From contig JAGRBY010000073.1 in assembly GCA_020433835.1 (NCBI GenBank), positions 1 through 18,722 on the forward strand: 18,722 bases of DNA. Direction: 5' to 3'. This document shows, piece by piece, positions 27 through 18,722 of this stretch (position 1 is the first letter of the stretch; each line of letters starts with the position of its first letter). The notes beneath the pieces are model-generated. The model saw only the letters and a program-made list of their open reading frames with translations, made no database searches and was not told where the DNA came from. The stretch comes from Anaerolineae bacterium. Its GTDB lineage: Bacteria; Chloroflexota; Anaerolineae; 4572-78; J111. The translations under genes and the position numbers were made by a program.

Positions 27-3000
27 GTGAATAAAAAGCTTATTATTCGACTGTTAGGGAACACAGTCATCGAACTGGATGGCCGGTTAATAAGCGACAG
101 CTTACCATCACGGGCGGCTGAAGCGCTTCTTATCTATTTGGTGTGCCACGATCGGCCTATCCCGCGCGAGACGCTGGCCGATCTCCTGTGGAGTGAGCGC
201 ACGCAGAAACAGGGCTTGACCAACCTGCGCACCATTCTAACCCCTTTGCGCCGCGAACTTGATGATTATCTGATCATCACCCGCCAGATGTTGGCCTTTA
301 ACCACGCTGCCCCCTACTGGCTGGATGCCGCCGAGTTCGAGAGCCAACTGACATCGCTGCAACCGCAGCTGCAAGCCGCCGCGCCGCTATCGCCTGAAGC
401 CGCCCGCCAACTGCAAACCGCCCTCGATCTTTACCAGGGCGACTTTTTGGCCAGTTTTGCCCTGAAAGAAGGGCCTGAATTTGAAGCCTGGATTTTATTA
501 CAGCGCGAACGACTCAAACGTCTAGCGGCCATGGGCTTGGAACATTTCGTAACCCACAGTCTAAGCCGGGGCAACTATCACCCAGGGCTGCGTTATGTCG
601 ATCAACTGCTGGAGCTGGATGCGTATAATGAGGTCGCGCAGCGCCAGCGCATGTGGCTGCTGGTGCGCTCCGGCCAACCACACGCCGCCCTGCAACAGTT
701 CGAGACATTCAGCCAACTGCTGGCCGACGAGCTGGGGCTGGAACCGATGCCCGAAACCAGGCATCTTTATCGGCATATCAAAACAGCCCGCACCTTTCGC
801 CTCAACAATTTACCCCCGCAGACCGGCCCTTTAGTAGGTCGCACCATTGAATTGCAGCGCCTGGAGGGATTTTTAACCAACCCCGACTGTCGCCTATTAA
901 CCCTGGTTGGCCCCGGAGGCATCGGCAAAACCCGGCTGGCCATCGAAGCCGCCGGCCATTACCAGTCGAGCCTGCTGCACGGCGTTTGTTTTGTTTCCAT
1001 CCCGGCCCTGGTTACTGAGGAAGTATTGGTGTCATCTCTGGCCGGGAGTCTCAAACTGGCTCTGGATGGCATGGTCGACCCCCGCGAGCAGTTGCTCAAG
1101 GCGCTACAGGAACGCGAAATCCTGCTGCTGCTCGATAGCTTCGAGCATGCGCTGGCACCTCAGCCTGCCCTTCGCAGTGAGGAGGCGAACGGGGGGCATA
1201 CATCGCAAAACAGCACAGGCCATGAAAATGGTGCTGCCGATGTCCGCAACCTGCTGAGCACTATTTTGGCTTTTGCGCCCCAGGTAAAACTGTTGGTGAC
1301 CTCGCGGGAACGGCTTAACTTAGAAGAGGAATGGTTTTTTCAAGTCGATGGTTTGCCGGTTCCGGATGATGCAATACAACCGGCCCAGGTAACCACTTAC
1401 AGCGCTGTACAGCTTTTTTTGCAAAATGCCAGCCGGGTGCAAAGCGGATTTGCTCCAACCGAAACCGATGTCTTGGCTATCGGTCGCATCTGCCGTTTGG
1501 TCGAAGGTCTGCCACTGGGTATAAATCTGGCAACGGCCTGGATCAAAGTGCTGCCTTGCGCCCAAATTGCCACCGAAATTGAAAGCAACTTGACCTTTTT
1601 GCAAAGCCCAACGCACACAGTAACCCACCGTCACCACAGCATCGAAGCCGTATTCGATCACTCCTGGCAGCGGCTAACCAACGATGAGCAGCAGGTGTTG
1701 AGCCGGCTATCTGTTTTTCAAGGCGGCTTTACCATCGACGCCGCCCAACAAGTTACCGACACAACGGTTTTATTGCTGGCCGGATTGGTCGATAAGTCGT
1801 GGCTGACGCTCAACCCGGAAGGGCGCTATGATGCCCACGAACTGCTGCGCCGCTATGCCGCCTTAAAGTTAGGGATAACTGATGCCGGCTCGCTAGATAA
1901 GGCGAACATGACCGAGGCGGAAATCGATATTCGCACTCGCCATGCCGCATATTACGCCGCTTTTCTCAGCTCCCGCCAAACACGGATCATCAACGAAAAT
2001 CAATTCGAGGCTATGGCCGAGATCGAAGTGGAGTTCGATAATGTGCGGGCCGCCTGGCAGTGGATGCTTACCCACGGTCTTGTCACCCTGGTCGACCAGT
2101 GCATGGAATGTTTGTGGCATTTCCTTGAGCTTAAAAACCAATTCAACGAAGCGGACGAGATGTATGGCCAGGCAATCGAGGCCTTTGCCCGGTATAGCGA
2201 GGCTGGCAAAATGGAGAACACGCCTTTGCTAGACCTTGATGCTCAATATGATCGGGTCTATGGCCGTATCCTCATCCGGCAAGGATGGTTTCACATGCGT
2301 CTATCCCGTTTTGATTCGGCCGAAGCGTTGCTATACCAAGGGTTGGAGCGCGTTCGCCGCACCGGTGATAGGGTGGAAACCGGCCGGGGAATGCAGCATC
2401 TGGGCCTTATTGCCGATGTACGAGGCCGGTATGAGGAAGCCGAAAAGCTATTCCGAGAAAGTTTCGCGATTTTGAAGAGCAGCCCCCACAGCACCCACTT
2501 TGATCTCAGTTCAGTCGGCACGCTCGGATTTTTACTCATGAAGATGGGGCAGTTTGAAGCAGCCCAGCCCTTTCTCGATGAGTCCGCTTTTCACTATCGA
2601 CAAATCGGCAATATGCGGGGCATCTCAGCGATAAGTGCTTTCATGGGTGCCGTTTTTATTCAACAGGGAAACTATCACGAAGCGAAACTGTCCTTGCTCA
2701 AGGCCCTGGATTTCCAAGAAAAAATTGGCGATTGGGCTTATATGCGCATGACACTGGACTGGTTGGGCGAAGCTTATGAGGGGGCAGGTGAATATTCCGA
2801 GGCCAAAACCTACTACGAAAAAAGTTTGACGGTTTCGCAAGGCAACGGCGACTGGGCCGGTGTGGCTCAGGCTTTGGGCCATTTGGGCCGGGTCTGTGTT
2901 ACCCTGAACGCCTATCAACAGGCCAAACAATGTCTGTACGAAGCATTCGATATTGCTACTGCCATTCAATCATGGCCGGTTATCATCGACGGCCTGGTGA

Positions 3001-3281
3001 GTATGGCCGATTGGCTGGTCAAAAACGGTGACCTGCCCCGTGCCTTGGAACTGTTACCCCTCACGCTGAACCATCCGTCGTGTGATCCGCGCACGAAACA
3101 CAGAGCGCAGCAGATCTATACCCAACTGCTTGACACCGCACCTGAAACGACGCCAACCCCTGAGTCGCCTCATCGCCCAATCGAGGCCATCGTATCAAAC
3201 TTTTTGGCTGAATGGGAGTACATGACCAGTAGACGGTATCTCTCATCTCCCACCGTAGCTGTTCGTCACATTATTGACTAA
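27..3281 (+). CDS. BTAD/SARP-type transcriptional regulator with NB-ARC ATPase and TPR domains (paralogue 1)
   Basis: Large STAND-type regulator of 1084 aa. In order: an OmpR-like winged-helix DNA-binding domain (about residues 5-95), a bacterial transcriptional activation domain (about 98-255), an NB-ARC-like ATPase with Walker A GPGGIGKT at 295-302, Walker B ending at D370, TSRER at 425-429 and GLPL at 494-497, a second winged helix near 545-573, and TPRs from about 740 to 1000. Such proteins are thought to switch on transcription when a ligand or partner is sensed by the TPR part; the signal here is unknown. The GTG at 27 is chosen because MNKKLIIRLLGNTVIELDG aligns with the start of the paralogue at 8278. 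The frame stays open to the window edge and the ribosome site (GGAGA at 8-12) is weakly placed, so an upstream start is possible. Odd point: about 25 extra residues (377-406, rich in G, N, S, H) lie just after Walker B and are missing in the paralogue. Confidence 0.88.
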   Translation: MNKKLIIRLLGNTVIELDGRLISDSLPSRAAEALLIYLVCHDRPIPRETLADLLWSERTQKQGLTNLRTILTPLRRELDDYLIITRQMLAFNHAAPYWLDAAEFESQLTSLQPQLQAAAPLSPEAARQLQTALDLYQGDFLASFALKEGPEFEAWILLQRERLKRLAAMGLEHFVTHSLSRGNYHPGLRYVDQLLELDAYNEVAQRQRMWLLVRSGQPHAALQQFETFSQLLADELGLEPMPETRHLYRHIKTARTFRLNNLPPQTGPLVGRTIELQRLEGFLTNPDCRLLTLVGPGGIGKTRLAIEAAGHYQSSLLHGVCFVSIPALVTEEVLVSSLAGSLKLALDGMVDPREQLLKALQEREILLLLDSFEHALAPQPALRSEEANGGHTSQNSTGHENGAADVRNLLSTILAFAPQVKLLVTSRERLNLEEEWFFQVDGLPVPDDAIQPAQVTTYSAVQLFLQNASRVQSGFAPTETDVLAIGRICRLVEGLPLGINLATAWIKVLPCAQIATEIESNLTFLQSPTHTVTHRHHSIEAVFDHSWQRLTNDEQQVLSRLSVFQGGFTIDAAQQVTDTTVLLLAGLVDKSWLTLNPEGRYDAHELLRRYAALKLGITDAGSLDKANMTEAEIDIRTRHAAYYAAFLSSRQTRIINENQFEAMAEIEVEFDNVRAAWQWMLTHGLVTLVDQCMECLWHFLELKNQFNEADEMYGQAIEAFARYSEAGKMENTPLLDLDAQYDRVYGRILIRQGWFHMRLSRFDSAEALLYQGLERVRRTGDRVETGRGMQHLGLIADVRGRYEEAEKLFRESFAILKSSPHSTHFDLSSVGTLGFLLMKMGQFEAAQPFLDESAFHYRQIGNMRGISAISAFMGAVFIQQGNYHEAKLSLLKALDFQEKIGDWAYMRMTLDWLGEAYEGAGEYSEAKTYYEKSLTVSQGNGDWAGVAQALGHLGRVCVTLNAYQQAKQCLYEAFDIATAIQSWPVIIDGLVSMADWLVKNGDLPRALELLPLTLNHPSCDPRTKHRAQQIYTQLLDTAPETTPTPESPHRPIEAIVSNFLAEWEYMTSRRYLSSPTVAVRHIID

Positions 3282-5100: not shown

Positions 5101-6009
5101 CTATCGCTCCCCGTACGGTTTCGCCGGAATGGATTGCAAATATAACCACAGAGCGCTAATTTCCTCATCCGTCATATGTTGGAAGGCCGGCCAGGGCATC
5201 TTTTGCGGGTTGACCTCGGTGCCGTTGGGCCGCTGCCCATAGCGCAGTACCTGCTTAAAATCCGCTTCGGTCCAATCCCCCAGGCCTGTTTCGTGATCCG
5301 GCGTCAAGTTTTGAGGATCGGGTGGATCGGGCGGCAGACCGGGAATGGGTCCACCTGATAACCCTTCGCCGTGGCAGCCAATGCAGGTTTGAGCCAGATA
5401 ATGACCATACTCAGCAGTTTCCCCTTTAGCCACAGCCGCCGGACGCGGTGCATTGTGATCGATCTGTTCAGCCGACAGAACCGGCGCGATCTTACCGACT
5501 AACAAGATTCGCCCCAAGGGGCCAACGGTCACGGGAGGTGGGGTATGGTCCACCGGCGGCAGGGCTTTGAGATAGGCAATCAAAGCGCCCAAATCGTTAT
5601 CATTGATGTTTTTGTATTCGATGGAAGGCATGACCACCAACGGCTTGCTGTCGGGGCCAATACCGTGGCGAATAGCCCGCACCCAGTCTATATCGGTGTA
5701 GCTCTGTCCTACCCCGCCTTCACCGGAAGTGAGGTTTGAAGCCATAATGTGGCCCACGAGCGCATCATCGATAACCATTTTACCGGCCCCATTTTCGCCG
5801 TGGCAGTCGATGCAGCCTCGGGTCAGAAACTGTCGCCCGCCTTCGGTGACCGCGTCCTCACCCGTCGGTATGGTTACAGCAGCCAGTTGAATCTGATACG
5901 TTTTGTTTAAACGCATCGTACTGATAACGTATACGCCCAGTAAAGCCACAATCAGTAGAGCCAGAACAATACCGACGATCCAACCTATCCATTTGAATAT
6001 TTTCTTCAT
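5101..6009 (-). CDS. Membrane-anchored diheme cytochrome c
   Basis: This 302-aa protein has one N-terminal membrane segment (about residues 9-30) that probably stays as an anchor, with two class I cytochrome c domains outside the membrane. Haem sites are CIDCH at 66-70 and CIGCH at 209-213. Likely axial methionines are M127 (in VVMPS) and M271 (in KMPWP). Each domain ends with the usual helix (ALIAYLKALP and ALWLYLQSIP). Family members carry electrons from periplasmic dehydrogenases to terminal oxidases. The ATG at 6009 is preferred over one 24 bp upstream because AAGGAG lies six bases before it and the hydrophobic anchor follows directly. It lies downstream of the FAD oxidoreductase gene on the same strand, which could make it that enzyme's electron acceptor; this is inference only. 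Confidence 0.88.
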   Translation of the reverse strand: MKKIFKWIGWIVGIVLALLIVALLGVYVISTMRLNKTYQIQLAAVTIPTGEDAVTEGGRQFLTRGCIDCHGENGAGKMVIDDALVGHIMASNLTSGEGGVGQSYTDIDWVRAIRHGIGPDSKPLVVMPSIEYKNINDNDLGALIAYLKALPPVDHTPPPVTVGPLGRILLVGKIAPVLSAEQIDHNAPRPAAVAKGETAEYGHYLAQTCIGCHGEGLSGGPIPGLPPDPPDPQNLTPDHETGLGDWTEADFKQVLRYGQRPNGTEVNPQKMPWPAFQHMTDEEISALWLYLQSIPAKPYGER

Positions 6010-6029
6010 ATCCGTCTCCTTGAAGAGAA

Positions 6030-6045
6030 CCAAGTTAAGACTTGG
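6030..6045. promoter_or_regulatory. CCAAGT-TAAG-ACTTGG palindrome in the leader of the cytochrome gene
   Basis: A 6-bp perfect inverted repeat with a 4-nt centre lies 20 bp upstream of the cytochrome start codon. On the minus strand it follows AT-rich TATACA and CTATAG sequences that could hold a -10 box, so it is placed like a repressor site or a small leader hairpin. No specific regulator is implied. Confidence 0.3.
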
Positions 6046-6143: not shown

Positions 6144-7553
6144 TCACGCACTCTCTCCGCTCAACGTTGAAGAAATCGGTTTAATATTTTGGTTTAAGCG
6201 AAAAAAGTTGGTGGGGTCATAGCTAATTTTTAAGGCCGCCAATCGATCATAGTTGGCTCGATAGGCAGCACGTACCGTATCCTCGTCTTCACCCCAGATG
6301 AAGTTTACATCCAACTCTGAACCGGCGAACGGCTGCATAGCCGCAACCGATGCCTGCGCCCAGTTCACGTGATCGGTGGCTAGACCTTCATCCCAACCGG
6401 CCATATGAACAACAACATAGTGTGGCTCCCGTAGAGCAAATGCCGTTGCTTCCGGGGCGATACGGGTGGCAGCCCCATGCCTGGGGTGAATGAGAATGGC
6501 TGAAAACGGCGACGACATCCGTTCGCTCCAGGTGATCAACGTCTTGAGCGCTTCATTACTGAATTGACGAACGGTGTAAGCCGGCTCGTAATAGTGACGC
6601 CCTTCAGGCATCATCCAGGCGAGCATCTCCAGAAAGTCGGCGTAGGTCATGGGCTGAATGCGGTCAACATGGGGCGGCCCGAACTGGCGTACCGGCGCGA
6701 GTAAGCGCTCTCCCGCAGTCGGGTTATCGCCAAAGTAGCCGGCCATAATCATCACTACCGGTCCAACATCAGCGGCCGTAGCCAGAAAAGCATAGGCGGT
6801 TACGTCATCGGGTGAACTGCTGCTGAAATCACGATAGAAAGTGAGAACCGAGTTGGCGTTGGTCAGCGGATAAACAACCATCCCCGCTAACACCGACTCC
6901 AGAGGATGCAGTTGGTACTCGATGGCCGTGACAATCCCGAAATTACCGCCACCACCCCGTAGTCCCCAAAACAGATCGGGGTTTTCAGTGGCGCTGGTCC
7001 GCAGTATATGACCGGCCACAGTAACCAGTTCAAAAGCAAGCACATTATCAATCGCCAGGCCGTATTTACCGGCTAACCAGCCGCTACCGCCGCCCAAAGT
7101 TGCGCCACTGATACCCGCTCCGGGCCAAATGGCGGTGGTGGTCGCCAGGCCGTAGAGTTGCAGCGCCCGGCTTAACTCACCTACGGTCAAACCGGCCTCG
7201 GCCCGGGCTATGCGTGTGACCGCATCAACCGTGATGCCTTTACAGGGCGACAGATCGATAACCAGACCGTTGTTGAGGGTGGCGAAGCCGTTGCTGTTGC
7301 AGCCCCCACCCCGAACCGCGACCGGCATGGCATAGTCACGGGCAAAATTAACCGCCAGAACCACATCCTGAGCTGTGCGACAGCGTGCAATTAAAGCCGG
7401 ATATTTGTTGATCCGACCGTTCCACACCCGACGCGCTTGCTCATAAGCGCTATCACCGGGGCGAATAAGCTGTCCGGTCAGCCCGGCTTCGAGCATCTCT
7501 ACGGCCCGCATAAAGGTCTGTTTTTTTGGCGCTGTCGACTCAGTGCTGCTCAT
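6144..7553 (-). CDS. FAD-binding oxidoreductase, berberine-bridge/oxygen-dependent type
   Basis: This 469-aa protein fits the PCMH/BBE flavoprotein family in length and layout. The FAD-binding domain (about 50-215) has RGGGCNSNGF at 81-90, GATLGGGSGW at 150-159 and LFWGLRGGGGNFGIVT at 194-209. The C-terminal BBE motif YDPTNFFRLNQNI lies about 20 residues before the end. Relatives oxidise sugars, alkaloids or other secondary metabolites with flavin and oxygen; the substrate here cannot be read. Odd point: the family has His in GGGH, which carries the 8-alpha covalent bond to FAD, and here it is Cys85 (codon TGC). No cysteine stands at the second, 6-S attachment region near 143-150. FAD may therefore be bound without a covalent link, or in an unusual way. 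The start has AGGAG at a good distance. Thirty bases separate it from the RidA-family gene upstream, which implies one transcript. Confidence 0.88.
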   Translation of the reverse strand: MSSTESTAPKKQTFMRAVEMLEAGLTGQLIRPGDSAYEQARRVWNGRINKYPALIARCRTAQDVVLAVNFARDYAMPVAVRGGGCNSNGFATLNNGLVIDLSPCKGITVDAVTRIARAEAGLTVGELSRALQLYGLATTTAIWPGAGISGATLGGGSGWLAGKYGLAIDNVLAFELVTVAGHILRTSATENPDLFWGLRGGGGNFGIVTAIEYQLHPLESVLAGMVVYPLTNANSVLTFYRDFSSSSPDDVTAYAFLATAADVGPVVMIMAGYFGDNPTAGERLLAPVRQFGPPHVDRIQPMTYADFLEMLAWMMPEGRHYYEPAYTVRQFSNEALKTLITWSERMSSPFSAILIHPRHGAATRIAPEATAFALREPHYVVVHMAGWDEGLATDHVNWAQASVAAMQPFAGSELDVNFIWGEDEDTVRAAYRANYDRLAALKISYDPTNFFRLNQNIKPISSTLSGESA

Positions 7554-7583: not shown

Positions 7584-7979
7584 CTAAACCACAGCCGTGG
7601 CTTCGATTTCAACCATCAATTCCGGGAAAGCTAAGCGACTAACACCTAACAGCGTGGCCGTAGGTCGGCATCCGGCCTGGGCCAAACGCGCGTTCATCGT
7701 GCTGCTGGCGGCGAAGAAGGCATCAACATCGGTCACGTAATAGTTCAAGCGCACAACATCCGCTAGTTTGAAACCAGCCTCATCTAAAACGATCTCAAGA
7801 TTATCCAAAGCCACGTTCACCTGGGCTGCCATATCGCCGGGATACATCGGCTGACCGTCAGCACTCATGGCCGTTTGTCCCGAGCACATCAAGCTGCGCC
7901 GCTCGCCACTTACGGCAATGGCTTGTACAAAACCTAACGCATCTTGCCACTGCCAGGGGTTAACAATACGTAGTTCCAT
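7584..7979 (-). CDS. RidA/YjgF/YER057c/UK114-family protein
   Basis: This 131-aa protein has the length and motifs of the family: NPWQWQD near the N-terminus, CSGQTAMSADG at 32-42, DVVRLNYYVTDVD at 74-86, Arg105 where the family's catalytic arginine is expected, and a C-terminal VEIEATAVV. RidA proteins speed the hydrolysis of reactive enamines and imines to ketones. Next to an FAD oxidase, it could clear an imine made by that enzyme; this is inference from context. The ATG at 7979 is chosen because AAGGAG lies seven bases upstream. The longer open frame to 8072 runs through a transposon-like insertion and is not expected to be coding. Only 19 bp separate the start codon from that insertion's target duplication, so the gene's own promoter was pushed away or lies in the element. 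Confidence 0.88.
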   Translation of the reverse strand: MELRIVNPWQWQDALGFVQAIAVSGERRSLMCSGQTAMSADGQPMYPGDMAAQVNVALDNLEIVLDEAGFKLADVVRLNYYVTDVDAFFAASSTMNARLAQAGCRPTATLLGVSRLAFPELMVEIEATAVV

Positions 7980-8004
7980 ATTCAATCTCCTTGTTGTAAA
8001 TGAA

Positions 8005-8116
8005 CAGGGCTTACGCAGAATGTAGAACAATTTGCTAAATTGTTCCGAGTTGTGGGCGTATGTGGGGCGCAAATTGGCAATTTACGCTACAAAATCGGGA
8101 ATTTGCGTAAGTCCTG
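8005..8116. mobile_element. MITE-like element 1 (112 bp) with 13-bp terminal repeats and 6-bp target duplication
   Basis: The left end CAGGGCTTACGCA (8005-8017) and right end TGCGTAAGTCCTG (8104-8116) are inverted copies with 12 of 13 matches. The element is flanked by a perfect direct repeat AATGAA (7999-8004 and 8117-8122), as expected for a target-site duplication. It is too short to code for a transposase. Inside are two hairpins: GAACAATTT-GCT-AAATTGTTC (8025-8045) and a near-perfect one at 8067-8087. A second element with the same ends lies at 12884-13006. Confidence 0.8.
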
Positions 8117-8150
8117 AATGAATTTGTTTTCCTTAGTGTATCCGTAAGCC

Positions 8151-8212
8151 ATTCCAAACCTATGCCGATAAGGAGCCGGAAGCGTTCCAATATCGTACCA
8201 ATTGCGTCCCAC
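8151..8212 (+). promoter_or_regulatory. Candidate SARP/BTAD operator: six heptamers repeating every 11 bp
   Basis: Heptamers start at 8151 (ATTCCAA), 8162 (ATGCCGA), 8173 (GAGCCGG), 8184 (GTTCCAA), 8195 (GTACCAA) and 8206 (GTCCCAC). Each has CC at positions 4-5, and the interval is exactly 11 bp every time. Consensus is RTNCCRA: four are full matches, one is 6/7 and one 5/7. SARP activators are known to bind direct heptamer repeats in an 11-bp rhythm on one face of the helix near the -35 region. The last heptamer overlaps the -35 and ends 12 bp before the TATAAT of the regulator gene. Less regular TTTCCTT (8128) and TATCCGT (8139) may extend the array. Confidence 0.65.
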
Positions 8213-8230
8213 CTAAAATGAACCTATAAT
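8202..8230 (+). promoter_or_regulatory. Promoter of the second BTAD regulator
   Basis: TATAAT at 8225-8230 is a perfect -10 box. TTGCGT at 8202-8207, exactly 17 bp upstream, matches three of six -35 bases, which fits a promoter that needs an activator. Transcription would start near 8237, leaving a leader of about 40 nt before the ATG at 8278. Confidence 0.6.
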
Positions 8231-8277: not shown

Positions 8278-11200
8278 ATGGCGCGGCTAACGCTCTACTT
8301 TCTCGGTGCTCCGCGCATCGAACTCGATGGTGCAGTCATTTCACCCAGCCACCACAAAGCTACGGCGCTGCTGGCCTATTTGGCTGTAACCCGCCAGGCC
8401 CACACCCGTCAATCGCTAGCCACCTTTCTGTGGCCCGATCACGATCCCACTGCTGCCCGCGCCGGTGTACGCCGCATGCTGTGGGTACTGAACAAACATA
8501 TGGGGCCAAACTGGTTGGAAACCCGCCATGAAACCATTATGCTGCCACCCCAGCCTGACCTGTGGCTGGATGTCGAGCATTTCCGAGAATTACTGGCCCA
8601 GCGCCGCCAACACGGCCACGCCCTTCATGAGGTTTGCCCGGCCTGTCGAGTACCGCTCATAGAGGCGATAGAACTGGTGCGCGGCGATTTTCTGGCCGGT
8701 TTTACTCTGCCCGACAGCCCCAACTTTGACACCTGGCAAATGTTTGAAACAGAAAATCTGCGCCGCGAGCTGACCGGCGCGTTAGAACTGCTGGTGCAAC
8801 TACTCAGCCAAGACGAGCAAACCTATGACCAAGCCATAAGTTATGCCCGCCAATGGCTAGCGCTCGATCCCCTATATGAGCCGGCCCATCGTCAACTGAT
8901 GCAGCTTTATGCCTGGGCCGGTCAATCGGCTGCGGCGCTTCAGCAGTACCAAACCTGCGTCCGGGAGCTTAAGGAAGCATTGGGCGTTGCCCCGTCAGCC
9001 GAAACCACCGCTCTGATAGAGGCCATTAAGGCCCACCGCTTGCTGCCGCCGGTTGAGACCACAGCGCCGCCCCCCACGGCAGTGCCCCTTGAGCCTCCAC
9101 CTTCGGCCAATCCTCCCCGCCTACCGCACAATCTGCCCGTTCAGGCCACCCCGTTTATTGGTCGCGAAAGCGCACTGAACGGTTTAGAGCAGCGATTGAC
9201 CGATCCCGACGTACGCCTGATAACCATCGTAGGGCCGGGTGGCATCGGCAAAACGCGGCTGGCCTTAGCTCTGGCCGAAAGGATTGTGCGGTCAACGCAG
9301 CTCTCATCGCTTTTTGACGATGGCATTTACTTCATCTCGCTCACTCCGCTATCAATGGGGCAGGCTGTTGTCCAGGCCATTGCCGAAGGTCTGGCCTTTC
9401 CGCTCACCTCTGCCGAAGAACAAGCCGGTCAACTGTTAAACTATCTGCGCTCTAAACGCCTGCTACTTATCCTCGATAATTTCGAACACGTTTTGGCCGG
9501 CGCGCCCTTTGTTAGCCGCCTGCTGCAGAACACGGCCGGAGTAAAAGTGGTGGCGACCTCGCAAGAACGGCTTAACCTGTTGGAAGAAAATCTGTGGCTT
9601 ATTGGCGGTCTGAACTTTGCGGACTTAACCGGTGTAGAAGAGGCCATGACCCACGAGGCTGTCCGGCTTTTTGTGCAGCGCGCCCGCCAGGTACGGCCCG
9701 ACTTTATGCTGCGTGACGAGGATTTACCGCACCTTGAACGCATCCTGCAAGGTGTGTGGGGCATGCCGTTGGCTATCGAACTGGCGGCGGCCTGGCTGAA
9801 TATGCTGTCGCTGGCCGGGGTAGCCGACGAACTTAGCCAAGGTTTAGATTTACTGGAGAGCGAACTGCGCGATGTCCCCAACCGGCACCGCAGTATGCGC
9901 TTGGTTTTTGACCGTTCCTGGGAACGGTTGAACCCGGACGAACAGATGCTGCTCAAAAAGCTGTCCCTCTTTCGGCGTGGCTTTACTCGCGAAGCTGCTC
10001 AACAGGTGGCCGGGGCATCGCTGCGGCTGTTGGCCGGCCTGGTCAACACCTCGTGGCTCACCAGCCAGCCAGACAGTAGTCGCTATACACTGCACGAACT
10101 GATCCGCCAGTATGCGGCTATGCACCTGCAGGCCGACCCGCAAGAGAAAGAGGCTACCTGCCAGCGCTACAGCCGCTACTATCTGGCCCTTATTCAGGCC
10201 CGCGAGATCGATCTGATCAGCCCGCGTCAAAGAGAAACAGTTGCCGCTCTCAAACCGGATGTCGATAATATTCGCCAGGCCTGGGAGATAGCCGCTACCA
10301 ACGCGCAAATCGAGAGGCTGCGCGACACGGCCCGGGCGTTTTACTACTTTTATGAGCTGCATCAATATTTCCAAGAGGCGGAATCGCTCTTTAGGCGCGG
10401 TGCTGCCGTAGTACAAATGCGGCTGGACACCTTAGCCGCCGATAGCCCGGCCTCGGAGCGGGCCGAACTGAACGGCGCACTGGGTTATATGTTGAACTAT
10501 CAGGCTTTCTTCAATCTGCGCCAGGGCAACAATCGCCAGGCTTTAATCCTTTATGAAAGCTGTATTGCCCTGCTGCGTCCGCTTCAAGAAATGTATGCCC
10601 TGGCCTTTGCTTTGATTCACTACGGAGTTGTTCATTGGGCCAGTGGCAACTTTGATGAGGCTGCCGCCACTATGCACGAAGGGCTAACCCTTAGTCGAAC
10701 ACTGGCCGATCTTTACCTACAAGCGCTGGCGAGCGCTTTTCTGGGGGCCTTAACGCACGACCAAGGGAATTACACTGAGGCTTACCGGTGGCTTAGCGAG
10801 GCAATGGGCTTTTGTCGACGCCTGGGAGACCCTCACCTCACCCTTTTTCTCGGCATTTACTTCAGCCGCACAGCCCACGCCTTGGGCCGGCTGACCGAAG
10901 CCCAAACCATGCTGCGCGAAGGCTTATACCTCGCCCGCGAAGCCGGCGACCGCTGGGGCATCGGCCTGGCATTAGAGCGCATGGCCGCCATTGCCCAGGA
11001 TACCGGCGATGTTATTGAAGCCTGTCGTTTGCTGGAAGAAAGCGTTGCCTTGCAGCGAGAGGTCGGCGATCCGTGGAGTTTAACCTGGGGCCTTAACGCG
11101 CTCAGCAAGCTGGCCTTAAGCCAATGTAACATCGATACCGCCGAACGTTATGTGGTCGAAGCTATCGCCACCGCCACAAAAGCCGATTACAACACCGGTG

Positions 11201-11439
11201 CCCTCGATGCCTTGGCTACGCTAGCAGCTATTCGTGCGCAGCAGGATCGGCCGGATGTGGCGCTGGCGATAGCTCTGCACATTCTACAGCATCCGGCCAG
11301 CACCCAAGACGCCAAAGATCGAGCCGAAGCACTGCGCGTTGACATGGTGGCCTTGCTAACACCCCAACAGCTTGAGGCCGTTCAGACCCAGGCCCAGACA
11401 CAAACGCTTGAGTCGCTTCGTCTGGCCGTTCTGGTCTAA
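8278..11439 (+). CDS. BTAD/SARP-type transcriptional regulator with NB-ARC ATPase and TPR domains (paralogue 2)
   Basis: Second giant regulator, 1053 aa from the chosen ATG. Domains: winged helix (about 1-95), activation domain (about 97-255, with CPACRVPLIEAIELVRGDFLAGF split by the usual pattern of this family), a proline-rich linker (about 257-282), an NB-ARC-like ATPase with Walker A GPGGIGKT at 319-326, Walker B ending at D400, TSQER at 427-431 and GMPL at 495-498, then a winged helix and TPR repeats to the end. It aligns along its length with the regulator at 27-3281 and lacks that protein's insert after Walker B. The ATG at 8278 is preferred over TTG at 8251 because AGAGG lies just before it and MARLTLYFLG matches the paralogue's start. 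A phased heptamer array and a TATAAT promoter lie directly upstream, which suggests autoregulation. Its inducing signal is unknown. Confidence 0.9.
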   Translation: MARLTLYFLGAPRIELDGAVISPSHHKATALLAYLAVTRQAHTRQSLATFLWPDHDPTAARAGVRRMLWVLNKHMGPNWLETRHETIMLPPQPDLWLDVEHFRELLAQRRQHGHALHEVCPACRVPLIEAIELVRGDFLAGFTLPDSPNFDTWQMFETENLRRELTGALELLVQLLSQDEQTYDQAISYARQWLALDPLYEPAHRQLMQLYAWAGQSAAALQQYQTCVRELKEALGVAPSAETTALIEAIKAHRLLPPVETTAPPPTAVPLEPPPSANPPRLPHNLPVQATPFIGRESALNGLEQRLTDPDVRLITIVGPGGIGKTRLALALAERIVRSTQLSSLFDDGIYFISLTPLSMGQAVVQAIAEGLAFPLTSAEEQAGQLLNYLRSKRLLLILDNFEHVLAGAPFVSRLLQNTAGVKVVATSQERLNLLEENLWLIGGLNFADLTGVEEAMTHEAVRLFVQRARQVRPDFMLRDEDLPHLERILQGVWGMPLAIELAAAWLNMLSLAGVADELSQGLDLLESELRDVPNRHRSMRLVFDRSWERLNPDEQMLLKKLSLFRRGFTREAAQQVAGASLRLLAGLVNTSWLTSQPDSSRYTLHELIRQYAAMHLQADPQEKEATCQRYSRYYLALIQAREIDLISPRQRETVAALKPDVDNIRQAWEIAATNAQIERLRDTARAFYYFYELHQYFQEAESLFRRGAAVVQMRLDTLAADSPASERAELNGALGYMLNYQAFFNLRQGNNRQALILYESCIALLRPLQEMYALAFALIHYGVVHWASGNFDEAAATMHEGLTLSRTLADLYLQALASAFLGALTHDQGNYTEAYRWLSEAMGFCRRLGDPHLTLFLGIYFSRTAHALGRLTEAQTMLREGLYLAREAGDRWGIGLALERMAAIAQDTGDVIEACRLLEESVALQREVGDPWSLTWGLNALSKLALSQCNIDTAERYVVEAIATATKADYNTGALDALATLAAIRAQQDRPDVALAIALHILQHPASTQDAKDRAEALRVDMVALLTPQQLEAVQTQAQTQTLESLRLAVLV

Positions 11440-13026: not shown

Positions 13027-14661
13027 TTACTGGCTAGCCAGCCGCACATGCTGATTAAACCGGTAATGGTCAACCAACTCCATGCGGTGAGTCATGACGA
13101 TGAAAGTGCGGTCAGCCCCGGCGGCCAACACAGCCCGAAAGACGTTGGCCGCGGTGACGGGATCGAGGTTGGCTGTAATCTCATCCAGCAGCCAGATAGG
13201 GGCATCTTTCAATAACATACGGGCCAGAGCAATGCGCTGACGCTCGCCGCCGCTAAGCAAGGTACCACCCTCGCCAACAAAGGTATCGTAACCATGGGGC
13301 AGGGACAGGATAAAATCGTGAATGTGGGCGGCCTGGGCAGCGGCTACTATTTCTTCGTCAGAAGCAGCGGTGCGGCCAATGCGAATATTTTCCCCAATTG
13401 TTGTGTTGAATAGATGGGTACGCTGCGTCATCACGCCGAACATCTGGCGCACATCTTCTTGAGACAGTGTTCTTAAATCGGTACCGTCGACTGTTATGTG
13501 GCCCGCTTCGTACTCGGCAAAACGGAGCAGAATATTGATAAGTGATGATTTACCAATCCCACTTTCTCCCGTCAGCAGCAGCTTTGTGCCATAAGGCAGG
13601 GCGAGTGAAAAATTGGCATAGATCAGGCGCTCTTCGGCAGCGTACCGAAACGACACCCCCTCCAGTTTGAGGTCGGGCGAAGTTAAAGGGCGAGACGCCG
13701 GTTGGGCCGGTTCGGGAACCGTGGGTGTACTGTCGATGACCTCAAACACGCGTCCGGCGGCGGTCAATTCTTGACCGAGGTGCTGCCCGGCCAACGCCAG
13801 CGGTGTAATCGCCTCAAAGGCAGCGATGGTACCGAGCACCAACGTAGCCAGCATCACCCCATCGACTCGCCCAATAGCGATCCACAGCACAACCACAGCG
13901 GCCCCATTAACCAACAGCACCGACAACCCATTTTGTAGTCCATCCAACCGGCCCATTTGTCGCTCCCAATGGGCCAGACGACTATTCATTCCATCCAGCG
14001 CTGCCCGCAATTGGGTGGCGTAACCAAAGGCCAAGCTGTCGGAGATACCCTGGATGGTGTCAACCAAATGGGTGTTGAGTTGGGTACGGCTGTCGATGAC
14101 CTGGCTACCCGCTCTAACCCCAATCCACCACGTTAGCACCGGCAGAAGAAGGCCGGTCACCAGCATAAAGGCCACCAGCACCAACGCCGCCCGGCCATCG
14201 AACACGCTAAAAGTCAGGCCCATACCGAAGGTGACAATCACGGCGACGATGGGCGGGCTGACCAGCCGCAGATAGAAGTTTTGCAGCTCTTCAATGTCAG
14301 ACACCACCCTGGCCATAAGGTCGCCGCTGCGGAAGGCTTGTAGCTGTACTAGCGACAGCGGCTCGATGCGCTCATAGAACCAGACCCGCAAGCGAGCCAG
14401 CAGGCGAAAGGTGACATCGTGGCTAACTAACCGTTCAAGATAGCGAAAGACGGCTCGCGACAGGCCAAACAGCCGCACGGCCACGGGGGCCACCCCCAGC
14501 GAGGTGATACCGAGTTGCAGAGCCGCCACACTAATCATCCAGGCCGAGATCATCATCAAGGCGATGCTGCTGCCAATCGTGAGTACGCTGAGCAATAAGG
14601 CCAGCAAGGTACGCCGCCAAAACGGTTTCATTAAACGTAAAATGCGGAGCAGATTAACCAT
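13027..14661 (-). CDS. cydC: CydC, ABC transporter subunit for cytochrome bd assembly
   Basis: This 544-aa fused membrane/ATPase half-transporter has six predicted membrane segments in about residues 15-300. The CydC signature region ERLVSHDVTFRLLARLRVWF lies at 76-95, with RSGDLMARVVSDIEELQNFY at 111-130. The ATPase part has Walker A GESGIGKS at 365-372, LSGGE at 469-473, Walker B WLLDE at 490-494 and switch His525. With CydD it forms the inner-membrane exporter of glutathione and cysteine, also reported to bind haem, needed for mature cytochrome bd. Its ATG overlaps the cydD stop by 8 bp (ATGGTTAA), which suggests translational coupling, and GGAG lies nine bases upstream. It is the last gene of the cyd cluster. 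Confidence 0.92.
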   Translation of the reverse strand: MVNLLRILRLMKPFWRRTLLALLLSVLTIGSSIALMMISAWMISVAALQLGITSLGVAPVAVRLFGLSRAVFRYLERLVSHDVTFRLLARLRVWFYERIEPLSLVQLQAFRSGDLMARVVSDIEELQNFYLRLVSPPIVAVIVTFGMGLTFSVFDGRAALVLVAFMLVTGLLLPVLTWWIGVRAGSQVIDSRTQLNTHLVDTIQGISDSLAFGYATQLRAALDGMNSRLAHWERQMGRLDGLQNGLSVLLVNGAAVVVLWIAIGRVDGVMLATLVLGTIAAFEAITPLALAGQHLGQELTAAGRVFEVIDSTPTVPEPAQPASRPLTSPDLKLEGVSFRYAAEERLIYANFSLALPYGTKLLLTGESGIGKSSLINILLRFAEYEAGHITVDGTDLRTLSQEDVRQMFGVMTQRTHLFNTTIGENIRIGRTAASDEEIVAAAQAAHIHDFILSLPHGYDTFVGEGGTLLSGGERQRIALARMLLKDAPIWLLDEITANLDPVTAANVFRAVLAAGADRTFIVMTHRMELVDHYRFNQHVRLASQ

Positions 14662-16387
14662 AGGCTTGCGCTCCTTGCGTGTGCAGCAGTTGGAAATAGG
14701 CCCCGTGCTGCCGCAACAGCGTCTCGTGGGTGCCGACCTCTACAATGTGGCCACCGTCAAGCACAACGATTTTATCGGCCTGCGTAATCGTGTTGAGCCG
14801 ATGGGCAATCGTGATGACGGTCTTTCCGACGGTTAGGGCTTGCAAATTATGCTGAACAACTCGCTCATTATCGGCATCGAGATTGGCCGTAGCTTCATCG
14901 AAGATGTAGAGATCGACTTTGCGTACAAAGGCCCGCGCCAAGGCGATCCGCTGGGCCTGGCCGCCGCTGAGTCGCGTAGCATTTTCGCCGAGGATGGTAT
15001 CGTAACCTTGCGGAAGCTGCTCGATGAAATGGTGAGCATTGGCTGCCTGGGCTGCCGCCACAATATCGGACTCAGTAGCATCCGGGCGGCCAACTCGAAT
15101 ATTGTCGGCGACGCTCATATTGAACAGATAGCCCCGCTGCGGCACCCAACCAATCTGCGTGCGCCATTGGTCAGCATCGATGTCGATCAAGGGAACAGGG
15201 CCGGTGGGGGTTCTGAGCAGCACCTGGCCACTGTCGGGTCGGACAAAGCGCAGCAATAGGTTGGCCACGGTCGATTTACCGCTACCTGTGGCTCCGACGA
15301 GGGCAATGTGCTCGCCCTGGTTTATCGTCAACGAAAAATTGTGCAGAGCGGGGCGTTCACCATCGGCAAAGGCAACCGATACATCGGTAAATTGAAGAGC
15401 GGCAAAGGCAGGCACGTCGATGCCGCCCTCTGCCTCCGGGGCATCGGCATCGAGAACGCTGTAGATGCGTTCGGCGGCAGCAGTACCATCGCGGCCTGAA
15501 TGAAACTTGGCTCCCAATTGGCGCAGCGGCATATAAAATTCGGGGGCAATAACCAGCAGAAATAGGGCCTGCTCGAAAACCATCCGGCCATACAGCAGTC
15601 GCAAGCCGATTTCGACGGCCACGACCGCCACACTCATCGTCGCTAGCAGTTCCAAAGTAAAGGCTGACAGAAAGGCGACGCGCAGCACGGCCATTGTACT
15701 GTGGCGGTATCGATCGGTCATGTGGGCGATGATGTGACGCTGGGCCTGACTGCGATTGAACAGCTTGAGCGTGGTCAACCCCTGCATCACATCGAGAAAG
15801 TGGGCGCTCATCTGGCCCAGTTGGGCATAGCGACTGTTGGCCAACGCACCTGCGGCCATACCGATTAAGGCCATAAAGATGGGGATGAGCGGAGCCGTGA
15901 AGAGCAGAATAACAAAAGTCAGGAGGTCGGCAGGCAGCACAACCAGCAAAATAGCCAACGGTATGAGCACAGCGATGAAGAGCGCCGGCAGATAGTCGCG
16001 AAAGTAACTATCAAGGGCATCGATACCGTCGGTGGCAGCCAGGGTCAGTTCGCCGCTGCGCTCCTGCTGGGTATAGGCCGGCCCCAACCGGATCAACCCT
16101 GTCAGCAGGCGTTGGCGCAGCGACTGCTTGATCCGAATGGCGACTTCCGCCGCCGAGATCTGAATACCGGCTTGATTGAGCGCACGCAGTCCAATAACGA
16201 TGAGCAAGAGAAGAAACAGTCCGCCGACTTCACTGCGAACGGCATCCTCCAAAAATACGCGGCTTATGATCCGGCTGAGCAAAAAGGCTTGGCCGATTAT
16301 CAACCCGCCACCGAGCAGACTTAAACTGACGGTGGCGATAAAGGCAAAGCGGGCTAATTGCGCTTCGCTTAGCAGTCGCTTGTCCAT
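14654..16387 (-). CDS. cydD: CydD, ABC transporter subunit for cytochrome bd assembly
   Basis: This 577-aa partner of CydC has the typical membrane part: GLTTLKLFNRS at 203-213, then APEFYMPLRQLGAKFHSGRD at 281-300 and GTAAAERI, a region that marks CydD. The ATPase part has Walker A GATGSGKS at 365-372, LSGGQ at 473-477, Walker B LYIFDE at 493-498 and switch His529, so both halves of the dimer look able to hydrolyse ATP. The start ATG has only a weak ribosome site (CGAGG). It is separated from cydB by 257 bp rich in palindromes, so it may be transcribed with cydAB at a lower level or have its own promoter. Confidence 0.92.
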   Translation of the reverse strand: MDKRLLSEAQLARFAFIATVSLSLLGGGLIIGQAFLLSRIISRVFLEDAVRSEVGGLFLLLLIVIGLRALNQAGIQISAAEVAIRIKQSLRQRLLTGLIRLGPAYTQQERSGELTLAATDGIDALDSYFRDYLPALFIAVLIPLAILLVVLPADLLTFVILLFTAPLIPIFMALIGMAAGALANSRYAQLGQMSAHFLDVMQGLTTLKLFNRSQAQRHIIAHMTDRYRHSTMAVLRVAFLSAFTLELLATMSVAVVAVEIGLRLLYGRMVFEQALFLLVIAPEFYMPLRQLGAKFHSGRDGTAAAERIYSVLDADAPEAEGGIDVPAFAALQFTDVSVAFADGERPALHNFSLTINQGEHIALVGATGSGKSTVANLLLRFVRPDSGQVLLRTPTGPVPLIDIDADQWRTQIGWVPQRGYLFNMSVADNIRVGRPDATESDIVAAAQAANAHHFIEQLPQGYDTILGENATRLSGGQAQRIALARAFVRKVDLYIFDEATANLDADNERVVQHNLQALTVGKTVITIAHRLNTITQADKIVVLDGGHIVEVGTHETLLRQHGAYFQLLHTQGAQAYG

Positions 16388-16437
16388 GGAGCCTCGGGGA
16401 TAGGAATTTTGGGTTGTCTCCCTTGAAAATAGCTTGT

Positions 16438-16463
16438 GTAGGGCAAACTTAAGTTTGCCCTAC
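16438..16463. repeat. Perfect 26-bp palindrome
   Basis: GTAGGGCAAACTT is followed at once by its exact reverse complement, with no spacer. As RNA it would need to open a few central pairs to form a loop. It resembles dispersed extragenic palindromes and lies 50 bp upstream of cydD. Confidence 0.8.
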
Positions 16464-16540
16464 GGATGTGGATGTTTTTATTGCCGGTGTCGTCTCAATC
16501 GAGACGGTTAGACTCTTTTGGGAATACGGGTGAGAATTTT

Positions 16541-16622
16541 TACCACACAGGCCACACAGAAGCTACAGAGAACACGAAGAAACCGCTGTGTCCTCTGTGG
16601 CTACTTTGTGTTCTCCGTGTTG
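16541..16622. repeat. CACAGAG/CTCTGTG imperfect inverted repeats
   Basis: Purine-rich units such as ACAGAGAACAC (16565-16575) pair with GTGTCCTCTGT (16588-16598) at 10 of 11 positions. The same unit can also pair with CTTTGTGTTCTCCGTGT at 16604-16620. It starts 23 bp after the cydB stop and could reduce readthrough into cydDC. Confidence 0.55.
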
Positions 16623-16644
16623 AAAACGTTTACAAACAGCAAGT

Positions 16645-17664
16645 TTAATACTCCAGATGGGTATCGGCCGTTACGCGTTTGCGGAAGACCCAATAAGTCC
16701 ACCCCTGATACATCAGCACAAGGGGTACAAAAATCAAGGCCACGATAGACATCACCTGCAACGTGTAAGGGCTTGAGGAAGCGTTGTAAATGGTCAAATC
16801 GAACTGACTGCCTAGCGAGGACGGCATCACGCGGGGGAACAACCCGCCAAACAAGAAGGTCACTACGCCGATTATCGTGAGGCCGGTGCCGACGAAAGCC
16901 AATCCATAACGCTTTTGCATGAGCAGCCCGCCGACCGCCAGCAAGGCCATTACAGCCACACCCAGCCCGATGCCTTGAACGGCATTGAAGCCGGTAAAGA
17001 GATCGGTTTCGATGAAGCTAAAGCCGACAAAAGCCAAAATGAGCACTACGACCGGGACCCACACCCGCATCAACAGCGCCTTGACTCGTTCGAGGATGAC
17101 GCCATCAGTTTTTAAGCTGAGGAACACAGCGCCGTGCAGGGTAAACAGCGTTAGCGTGACCAACCCACCAAGCAGGGCGAACGGATTTAGGAGGGTGAAG
17201 AAGGTGCCGGTGTAGGTCATCGACTCGTCGATGGGGACACCGCGCACGATATTGCCGAAAGCCACGCCCCACAGCAGCGCCGGGAGAAAACTGCCAACGA
17301 AAATGGCCATGTCCCAGGTTTTGCGCCAGACCGAGTTGTCATCCTTGCTGCGGAATTCGAAGGCAACGCCGCGAATGATCAGCGCAAACAGGATAAGGAA
17401 CAGCGCCAGATAAAAGCCACTGAACAGCGTAGCATACCAGTTGGGAAAAGCAGCAAAAATTGCGCCGCCGGCGGTTAGCAACCACACCTCGTTGCCGTCC
17501 CAGTGGGGGCCAATAGTGTTGATGGTCATACGGCGTTCCTGATCGTTTTTGGCGACAAATGGCAGCAGAATGCCAACGCCGTAATCAAATCCTTCCAGAA
17601 AGAAGAAGCCGGTGAACAGGATAGCGATGAGTAAGAACCAAAGTGTGTTGAGATCGAAAGGCAT
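16645..17664 (-). CDS. cydB: Cytochrome bd ubiquinol oxidase subunit II
   Basis: This 339-aa multi-spanning membrane protein starts with FFFLEGFDYGVGILLPF, the hallmark of CydB, and has PHWDGNEVWLL near residue 53. The length fits the family. It pairs with CydA to form the quinol oxidase that reduces oxygen to water with high affinity and does not pump protons. The ATG follows AGGAG, and the cydA stop codon TAG is part of that ribosome site, with 12 bp between the genes, so the two are co-translated. Confidence 0.95.
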   Translation of the reverse strand: MPFDLNTLWFLLIAILFTGFFFLEGFDYGVGILLPFVAKNDQERRMTINTIGPHWDGNEVWLLTAGGAIFAAFPNWYATLFSGFYLALFLILFALIIRGVAFEFRSKDDNSVWRKTWDMAIFVGSFLPALLWGVAFGNIVRGVPIDESMTYTGTFFTLLNPFALLGGLVTLTLFTLHGAVFLSLKTDGVILERVKALLMRVWVPVVVLILAFVGFSFIETDLFTGFNAVQGIGLGVAVMALLAVGGLLMQKRYGLAFVGTGLTIIGVVTFLFGGLFPRVMPSSLGSQFDLTIYNASSSPYTLQVMSIVALIFVPLVLMYQGWTYWVFRKRVTADTHLEY

Positions 17665-17676
17665 AATTGTTAACTC

Positions 17677-18722
17677 CTAATAGGCCAGCTTGACTTTATC
17701 GTCTGACCGAGGGCTTTTGGGCAGGGGGAGCATATCATCGGTGGAATGGCTGGTGGTGGCGTATTTCCAGAGCAAGTAAAAGTCGGCCAGGGCCAACACG
17801 CCGTAGAGCACTGTAAAACCAATCAGCGAAATCCAGAGATCGGTCACGGTTAAGTTGGGTGAAAGGCCCTGCTCAGTGCGCATTAAGCCCTGCACAATCC
17901 ACGGCTGACGGCCCATTTCGGTCAGCATCCAGCCGGTGGCGTTGGCAATATAAGGCAGCATTATTGTGAAAGGGAGTATGAATAGAAACCAGCGCGATTT
18001 GTCTAAGATGCCGCGCCACCACAAAAACAGCCCCACTATCGCGACCAAACTCATGAGCATGCCAAAGCCGACCATCGCCCGGAAGCTCCAGTAGATAAGC
18101 CAGATCATGGGCGGGACAAAGTTGGCGTTGGGGCCATACGTGTTGGCGTATTGCTCTTGATACATTTCATTAATATTGTTGATACCGGGCACCAACCCGT
18201 GAAAAGAGTCGTAGGTCAAGAAGCTCAAGAGGGAAGGAATACGGATGTTAATGATTGAACTGCGGGTCTTTTCATCGCCAATCTGAAAGAAAGAGAGCGC
18301 GGCGGGCGACTCGGCTTCCCACAACCCTTCGGCTGCGGCCAACTTCATCGGCTGCTTTTCGAGCATGAACTGGCCGGACAGGTGGCCGACGACCATCGTG
18401 ATTATCACCGCCGCCAACCCAAAGACTAAGCCGATGCGCAACGAGCGCGAAAACATAAGCTGCTCAGCGGGGGTGTTGCGGCGCAGCAGGCGATAGCCGC
18501 TAATGGCGACGATGAAGAAGCCGGCCGTAGTAAAGGCGGCAAAGACAACGTGGGGAAACTGGAGAAAGATGTTGGGGTTGGTGATAATCGCCCCGAAGTC
18601 AACCATCTGTGCCCGACCGTTGACCAGCTCATAACCGACCGGGTTTTGCATCCAACTGTTGGCGATGAGAATCCACAGGCTGGAAATCGTCGTGCCCAGC
18701 GCCACCATCCAGATCGTGAGCA
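17677..18722 (-). CDS. cydA: Cytochrome bd ubiquinol oxidase subunit I (5' end outside the window)
   Basis: About 347 C-terminal residues are visible and the frame is open to the window edge; the first internal ATG at 18708 is not the real start. NSWMQNPVGYELVNG and FPHVVFAAFTTAGF carry the helix with the conserved haem b558 histidine. The stretch GLVPGINNINEMYQEQYA is the quinol-binding loop. It is followed within about 20 residues by the next membrane helix with WSFRAMVGFGML, which holds the conserved methionine ligand. The loop is therefore the short type, unlike the long loop of E. coli CydA. GRQPW is also present. CydA carries all three haems of the oxidase. Confidence 0.95.
   Translation of the reverse strand, partial: LTIWMVALGTTISSLWILIANSWMQNPVGYELVNGRAQMVDFGAIITNPNIFLQFPHVVFAAFTTAGFFIVAISGYRLLRRNTPAEQLMFSRSLRIGLVFGLAAVIITMVVGHLSGQFMLEKQPMKLAAAEGLWEAESPAALSFFQIGDEKTRSSIINIRIPSLLSFLTYDSFHGLVPGINNINEMYQEQYANTYGPNANFVPPMIWLIYWSFRAMVGFGMLMSLVAIVGLFLWWRGILDKSRWFLFILPFTIMLPYIANATGWMLTEMGRQPWIVQGLMRTEQGLSPNLTVTDLWISLIGFTVLYGVLALADFYLLWKYATTSHSTDDMLPLPKSPRSDDKVKLAY

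Follow-up and report, generated by a model that had tools for sequence, protein, structure and literature searches.

A SARP-type candidate operator upstream of a large BTAD regulator in Anaerolineae, and gene-specific spelling of 11-bp arrays among its Chloroflexota relatives

The regulator and the array before it

SARP operators have been described in the antibiotic clusters of Streptomyces. Here we describe an array of short direct repeats in a stretch of 18,722 nucleotides from an Anaerolineae bacterium (assembly GCA_020433835.1, contig JAGRBY010000073.1), which we call the window and which carries a giant BTAD regulator on one side of the array and a divergent row of genes on the other. 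Two relatives recur in the comparisons: L001, the single close orthologue from the genome collection (Anaerolineae MAG HKST-UBA12, 87% protein identity), and L032, the next relative compared (54% identity over 930 residues, 67% within the first 262). The features of the locus are as follows.

5101..6033, minus strand: cytochrome c protein, part of the divergent gene row (domain search; identical order in L001)
6144..7553, minus strand: FAD-linked oxidase with a BBE domain, divergent, a probable second target (domain search)
7584..7979, minus strand: RidA-family gene, divergent, 131 aa (Pfam Ribonuc_L-PSP on the 7584-8072 frame)
8151..8157, plus strand: unit 1, heptamer ATTCCAA, upstream pair (kept in L001; L032 counterpart AATGCCA)
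8162..8168, plus strand: unit 2, heptamer ATGCCGA, upstream pair (ATGCCTA in L001, TGTGCCA in L032)
8173..8179, plus strand: slot 3, GAGCCGG, degenerate and read as blank instead of as a unit (GAAGCAG in L001; also degenerate in L032)
8184..8190, plus strand: unit 4, GTTCCAA, triplet, preceded by C, giving CGTTCCAA (window, L001 and L032)
8195..8201, plus strand: unit 5, GTACCAA, triplet, preceded by C, giving CGTACCAA (window, L001 and L032)
8206..8212, plus strand: unit 6, GTCCCAC, triplet, preceded by C, giving CGTCCCAC (window, L001 and L032)
8202..8207, plus strand: -35-like TTGCGT, matching three of the six bases of TTGACA, 17 bp before the -10 and within the array
8225..8230, plus strand: perfect -10 TATAAT, 20 bp past the C of the last CGT
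8278..11439, plus strand: BTAD-NB-ARC-TPR regulator of 1053 aa with large-SARP architecture, ATG at 8278 (Pfam BTAD, NB-ARC and TPR)
8446..8502, plus strand: recognition helix of the regulator, residues 57-75 (AlphaFold helix and alignments to AfsR)

The 8278 protein belongs to the large type of BTAD regulator. Its BTAD domain scores far above threshold (PF03704, 4.5e-20, 72.9 bits against a cut-off of 22.1), and NB-ARC (PF00931, 9.6e-10) and several TPR families also exceed theirs. An OmpR-type winged helix precedes BTAD in the AlphaFold model, with the helical BTAD domain behind it and a pLDDT of 95.7 over residues 1-262. All six PDB matches at E<=0.001 are to AfsR (8k60, two chains, and 8hvr) or EmbR (2ff4, two chains, and 2fez), with TM values of 0.71-0.75 against AfsR 8k60/8hvr and TMq of 0.71-0.73 against EmbR; these two proteins also lead in sequence comparison. 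EmbR of Mycobacterium tuberculosis shares the fold of the DNA-binding and BTAD domains but has an FHA domain where the 8278 protein has NB-ARC-TPR. We also considered the protein as AfsR proper and rejected this: the AfsR model NF053617 is hit at 7.2e-30, but with 103.7 bits against a cut-off of 1430, which marks a relative and not AfsR.

The initial annotation had described six heptamers of consensus RTNCCRA in one 11-bp register. Direct reading of the window bears out the spacing, with CC steps at 8154, 8165, 8176, 8187, 8198 and 8209 lying exactly 11 bp apart, and likewise the four full matches in a single register, which start at 8151, 8162, 8184 and 8195; the heptamers at 8206 (GTCCCAC) and 8173 (GAGCCGG) match five and four of the six specified positions. 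Units 4-6 are better written nCGTnCCAAnn, and in units 1 and 2 an A replaces the G of CGT. The array overlaps the stretch 17 bp before TATAAT, the putative -35 region of a start site read from sequence alone, and a sigma-70 scan under a 4-of-6 rule found no promoter at the array/TATAAT site. Against Rfam, at gathering thresholds, the window gave no matches.

That such a run is rare, as had been claimed, is true of the register and not of the single heptamer. Single RTNCCRA matches are common in the window (46 on both strands, against a shuffle mean of 37.7, sd 5.7). In a six-unit scan at 11 bp the array reaches 33/36, with a scoring consensus derived from the array itself, against 25/36 for the best place in the window that does not overlap it (periods 9-13, either strand). 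Free of any consensus, at least six identical dinucleotides at some period from 8 to 14 appear in 22 of 3,000 shuffled versions of the 298-bp spacer between the genes and in nine of 60 of the whole window. By itself the window array is suggestive, and mildly unusual when no consensus is assumed; the consensus-free test within the window is the weaker one, and comparison with relatives decides.

On the divergent side, the RidA-family gene matches TIGR00004 at 7.6e-13, under the cut-off, and has a counterpart in L001. The window FAD oxidase is 82% identical to that of L001 and 34-35% identical to those beside the L032 and L228 arrays, which are described below. Between ridA and the array lies a 112-bp palindromic element (8005-8116), probably MITE-like, with ends CAGGGCTTACGCA and TGCGTAAGTCCTG and 6-bp flanking repeats AATGAA at 7999-8004 and 8117-8122. 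It folds far better than its shuffles (z -5.4), is missing from L001 and has 20 matches elsewhere in genome G001. Farther out, the window holds a second BTAD-NB-ARC-TPR gene (27-3281), its upstream region cut off, as well as cytochrome bd oxidase subunits with a CydD-type ABC transporter (14654-18708, minus strand) and an adjoining ABC transporter half (13027-14661), probably CydC.

Conservation in close relatives and beside FAD oxidases

The L001 promoter keeps units 1, 2, 4, 5 and 6 together with TATAAT, and its slot 3 has lost the CC (GAAGCAG). Substitutions between the window and L001 number two in 40 positions of the unit cores, five in 15 of the linkers, four in 12 of slot 3 and nine in 56 of the remaining promoter, with none in the six of TATAAT or in the 30 bp on the ridA side. 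L032 shows two units, a degenerate slot, three units and then TATAAT, and the distance from the C of the last CGT to this box is 20 bp in the window, 20 bp in L001 and 19 bp in L032. Conservation of phased CC in orthologous promoters, which had been put forward as the check on the array, is thus seen in both close relatives compared. The claim of six heptamers in exact phase needs correcting: slot 3 is degenerate, and the pair and the triplet are 22 bp apart in the window and 23 bp apart in L032 and in the L228 copy, so an unbroken six-unit register is not conserved. Since slot 3 lacks CC in L001 and is degenerate in L032, the conserved object, as judged from these alignments, is a pair, a blank slot and a triplet.

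These comparisons also bear on chance. The spacer DNA is AT-richer, and the 22 of 3,000 spacer shuffles with a comparable dinucleotide run show that such runs do arise. Given that the array is kept in L001 and L032, where the units have changed less than the DNA between them, and given the family-wide pattern described below, we reject chance as the sole cause and regard it as exceedingly improbable.

A search of genome G001 with CGTNCCANNNNCGTNCCA found six occurrences, and a backward control pattern found two. Of these six, two overlap in the orthologous promoter, two overlap on contig C481, one lies before the BTAD gene L025 and one falls inside an open frame. The exact three-unit array, with no mismatch allowed, occurs at two places in this genome, the orthologous promoter and C481. 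On C481 it stands 124 bp before a FAD oxidase and points away from it, the same orientation that the window array has relative to ridA and its FAD oxidase, and the 3 kb read at this second locus (L228, promoter 1430-1660) contain no BTAD gene. The C481 oxidase is 72% identical to the oxidase divergent from the BTAD gene in L032, and the C481 and L032 spacers give a gap-free alignment of 97 bp at 68%. In the sequences compared, the array and FAD oxidases evidently travel together, and from this we infer that the BTAD protein also controls the divergent and FAD oxidase genes.

One could go further and regard the array as an operator that primarily serves the divergent row of ridA, FAD oxidase and cytochrome c genes, with the BTAD gene a mere neighbor and the BTAD protein possibly still the binder. 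Such a role would fit the second exact array 124 bp upstream of a FAD oxidase with no BTAD gene in 3 kb, the position of the L032 array between its BTAD gene and a divergent oxidase 72% identical to that of C481, and the identity of the 30 bp on the ridA side between the window and L001. It sits poorly with the orientation of the units, which point to the BTAD promoter and its conserved TATAAT at 19-20 bp; with a grammar that is family-wide in the direction of BTAD genes and not on the reverse strand; and with a unit spelling that tracks the DNA-binding domain of the BTAD gene itself. We keep it as a possibility on the unlikely side, and continue with the array as an operator of the regulator's own gene.

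Spelling of the units across Chloroflexota BTAD genes

We assembled upstream regions of Chloroflexota BTAD genes in three sets of 127, 87 and 57 genes. Inclusion was from among the matches listed, with the alignment beginning near the protein start, upstream DNA present and genes already included left out. With at least 150 bp upstream and trusted starts, 122, 86 and 56 regions were usable, 264 in total. A single Chloroflexota genome can encode dozens of BTAD regulators; G001, with 39 BTAD matches, supplied 30 loci, of which three without upstream DNA and five with untrusted starts were dropped. Thresholds were fixed after set 1 had been seen. One fixed consensus, RTNCCRA, proved unsuitable for paralogues: few of those in G001 scored high, and because several low scorers carried 11-bp repeats spelled otherwise, it was exchanged for a spelling-free test.

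In set 1, this test gave a mean z of 1.24 at lag 11, with 21 of 122 regions at p<=0.02, and every other lag from 5 to 35 fell between -0.13 and 0.41; in control DNA 650-900 bp upstream, lag 11 gave a z of -0.13 and 3 of 112 regions at p<=0.02. The unit profile built from 32 set 1 arrays reads nCGTnnCaAaA. Left-one-out scoring of set 1 with this profile yielded a z of 1.62 at period 11 and 0.42-0.70 at other periods, and 28 of 122 regions scored above all 60 of their own shuffles or level with the best. Set 2, outside profile training, gave a mean z of 1.11 at period 11 (11 of 86 regions above all 80 shuffles), compared with 0.33-0.58 at other periods, 0.39 on the reverse strand and -0.09 in control DNA. 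The difference between the forward and reverse strands indicates that the array is directional.

To describe the spelling itself we used a caller whose score comes solely from CGT and the A-rich end of the frame nCGTnnnnAAA and takes no account of the four inner bases. In sets 1 and 2 it called 11-bp pairs in 115 of 208 regions, whose inner bases agreed at 2.61 of four positions against 1.15 between genes; 41 of the 115 pairs agreed at all four. No pair with full inner agreement was found at periods 9, 10 and 13. The 12-bp period was not empty (46 of 208 called, agreement 1.61, 4 of 46 full), so a 12-bp spacing may occur in some BTAD genes. In control DNA the caller found 32 pairs at 11 bp, with an agreement of 1.09 of four and two full matches, and at the strictest threshold seven pairs with 2.14 and two full.

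The agreement persisted without the 32 training genes: 2.70 in 46 pairs from 90 genes of set 1 (permutation maximum 1.67), 2.24 in 42 pairs from 86 genes of set 2 (maximum 1.74) and, in set 3, 3.29 of four with 38 of 56 regions called and 23 full (maximum 1.92). Over all sets, 153 of 264 regions were called, 103 had at least three agreeing inner bases and 64 had four, and those 64 fully agreeing pairs carry 40 different tetramers. Because 111 of the 264 regions had no pair at threshold and just four of 23 usable G001 paralogues reached at least three agreeing inner bases, a self-spelled 11-bp pair, as judged with this caller, is frequent but falls short of universal. No pair at threshold was called for L138, L143, L148, L149 and the G001 paralogue L062, whose DNA-binding domains are closely related to that of the window protein. 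In a comparison with 13 regions of XRE-type NB-ARC-TPR genes, three were called at 11 bp and none agreed at four of four inner bases; this sample is small and impure, with at least one member (L312) starting with a BTAD-type domain, and adds little.

Two observations on 12-bp spacing stand apart from these counts. Upstream of L035, L038 and L025 the units seem to repeat at 12 bp rather than 11, possibly as a minority spacing class. The XRE-type NB-ARC-TPR gene L314 has 12-bp-spaced GCGTTACAAAA and ACGTTACAAGC upstream, agreeing at four of four inner bases, and may be regulated by a BTAD protein.

We compared unit bases with residues of the DNA-binding domain, blindly and in AfsR numbering, using pairs over threshold with at least two agreeing inner bases (85 pairs, sets 1 and 2) or at least three (pooled). 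Among the 85 pairs, residue 87 with base 2 ranked first, and 92 with base 6 and 88 with base 5 ranked high. When sets were pooled at one unit per gene (72 representatives below 60% identity), 87 with base 2 (z 11.7) and 88 with base 5 (z 10.0) were first and second of 968 blind tests. At residue 88, Q goes with A at base 5 in 26 of 31 representatives, R with C in 8 of 12, K with C in 3 of 3, L with T in 5 of 5 and T with T in 3 of 4; R at residue 92 goes with C at base 6 in 23 of 25. G stands at base 2 in 64 of 67 representatives with R87 against two of five with S87, so that the 87 signal rests on five S87 genes. Residues outside the helix (45, 46 and 78, and also 29 in the 85-pair comparison) rank high as well, which indicates that shared ancestry was not fully removed.

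Set 3 served for prediction, with no filter on inner agreement and with rules written from the 85 pairs of sets 1 and 2. These rules were Q to A, R to C and V, T, L or I to T for residue 88 and base 5, and R to C and N to G for residue 92 and base 6. Residue 88 predicted base 5 correctly in 43 of 56 units, where permutations averaged 34.9 (p 0.009), and residue 92 predicted base 6 correctly in 36 of 54, where they averaged 21.9 (p 0.0004); when only domains below 65% identity were kept, p was 0.013 and 0.012, respectively. In the window protein, R65, R66 and V70 align with AfsR R87, T88 and R92, so that R66 occupies the 88 place while C stands at base 5, and the CC that had been noted corresponds to bases 5 and 6. 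The set 3 calls include no R88 gene, and the window's own R-to-C rule thus lies outside this prospective test. Two residues at 88 may supply further code words: Y88 goes with units CGTGG in all five set 3 genes that have it (L248, L266, L274, L275 and L300), and D88 goes with CGTCG in both of its genes (L243 and L293).

We consider it reasonably probable, from these correlations, that large-SARP genes in Chloroflexota commonly carry a self-addressed operator, in which a fixed CGT....AAA every 11 bp would enclose four inner bases peculiar to each gene and matched, through a short code, to the recognition helix that the gene encodes. Paralogues would then form mutually insulated autoregulatory circuits with addresses readable from sequence. 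As part of this reading, the proposed code assigns R87 to G at base 2; Q88 to A, R88 or K88 to C, and L88 or T88 to T at base 5; and R92 to C at base 6. If the code is true, R66Q and R66L would move the base 5 preference from C to A and to T, respectively (arrays CGTNCCAA, CGTNACAA and CGTNTCAA).

Gene-specific spelling also speaks to the identity of the binder. PhoP recognizes the AfsR repeats, according to a published review (PMC10972967), and another OmpR/PhoB-type protein with 11-bp direct repeats, such as a PhoP-like response regulator, might occupy these arrays as PhoP does the AfsR box. A common regulator would give one spelling, whereas we find 40 tetramers in 64 fully agreeing pairs and a spelling that covaries with the adjacent gene's own domain. 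We therefore reject a foreign common regulator, which we hold to be very unlikely.

Proposed action and comparison with known systems

With high confidence, we interpret the window array as a SARP-type operator of the AfsR-box kind, to which the 8278 BTAD protein is predicted to dock, probably activating its own promoter. Autoregulation predicts that unit bases covary with the recognition helix encoded by the same gene, as observed family-wide, and a foreign binder does not. The simplest reading offered initially, a SARP-type operator with autoregulation by this protein, draws support from the conservation in L001 and L032, the AfsR/EmbR fold and the covariation with the gene's own domain, and needs amending in that the array is a pair, a blank and a triplet, not six heptamers, and probably also serves the divergent oxidase operon besides autoregulation.

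In the mechanism that we envision, adjacent BTAD protomers would occupy the same DNA face, each docking on a single 11-bp unit through its OmpR-type winged helix. The recognition helix would read unit bases 2 to 7, with R65 (AfsR 87) reading the G of CGT and R66 (AfsR 88) the leading C of CC through the G opposite it. Because the promoter-proximal triplet covers a poor -35-like stretch with a good -10 behind it, protomers bound there would recruit RNA polymerase and activate the regulator's own promoter. The upstream pair may add cooperativity and probably serves the divergent ridA-FAD oxidase-cytochrome c genes, and the NB-ARC/TPR part would act as a signal-gated switch.

The nearest precedent is AfsR of Streptomyces coelicolor at the afsS promoter. 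As two reports describe, its afs box consists of two 11-bp direct repeats, CGTT(T/C)ATCGNN, AfsR occupies positions -40 to -19, and region 4 of sigma rests on the SARP protomers (PMC10936776, PMC10972967). In the cryo-EM structure, T88 contacts base pair -36 (unit base 5), R92 touches T-38 (unit base 3), R87 makes a backbone contact and the contacts together cover the first 8 bp (PMC10936776). The two systems share the SARP-NB-ARC-TPR architecture, the OmpR-type winged helix, CGT-led 11-bp repeats, a box over the -35 (putative here) and spacer, and the pairing of residue 88 with unit base 5, a contact in AfsR and a covariation here. Unlike the two repeats that serve afsS, the array here is a pair, a blank and a triplet that apparently address the regulator's own gene and the divergent oxidases; its inner bases are nCC rather than T(T/C)A, its host belongs to the Chloroflexota, and by our count its last unit lies 20 bp from the -10 instead of the approximately 17 of the AfsR promoter. 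Residue 92 covaries with base 6 and residue 87 with base 2, in contrast to the base 3 and backbone contacts of AfsR.

PimR, a SARP-LAL protein, offers a second parallel: its operator at pimM, which it activates, contains three CGGCAAG heptamers with 4-bp spacers, and binding needs at least two heptamers (PMC5930380). Three heptamers at 11 bp with a separate pair are common to both operators. The PimR heptamer differs, its pair has a 3-bp spacer and its C-terminal half is of the LAL type, not NB-ARC-TPR.

Operator type and protein type are known. In the open-access literature searched, which most subscription journals fall outside, we found neither a paper treating the operators of BTAD regulators from Chloroflexota nor one describing a recognition code for SARP proteins, nor did we find in it the Chloroflexota setting, the pair-blank-triplet layout, the self-addressed spelling of paralogues or the covariation code. 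If our reading is true, own-promoter arrays would provide hundreds of natural protein-site pairs and make a specificity code of SARP/OmpR-type domains testable. The targets and regulons of uncultured Chloroflexota regulators could then be predicted by a search for the spelling that belongs to each protein.

The sign of regulation is a separate question. The layout resembles that of AfsR, about 3 bp further upstream, which suggests activation of the regulator's own promoter; we take activation to be the likeliest sign, with fair confidence and with repression as its rival. Under that rival, the same protein would bind the same operator and repress its own gene by covering the -35 and spacer, activating only elsewhere. 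An array over the putative -35 region, a perfect -10 that could allow unaided basal transcription and TATAAT-like boxes that lie at varied distances from the called pair across the family (10-60 bp, 60 boxes) are all compatible with this. Nevertheless, AfsR and other SARP proteins activate from boxes so placed and the -35 here is poor, and we judge negative autoregulation rather unlikely. Activation is also better suited than simple blocking to the phasing of the TATAAT-like boxes, which to some extent follow the 11-bp step of the units (Rayleigh p 0.007, an exploratory value and the best of eight periods).
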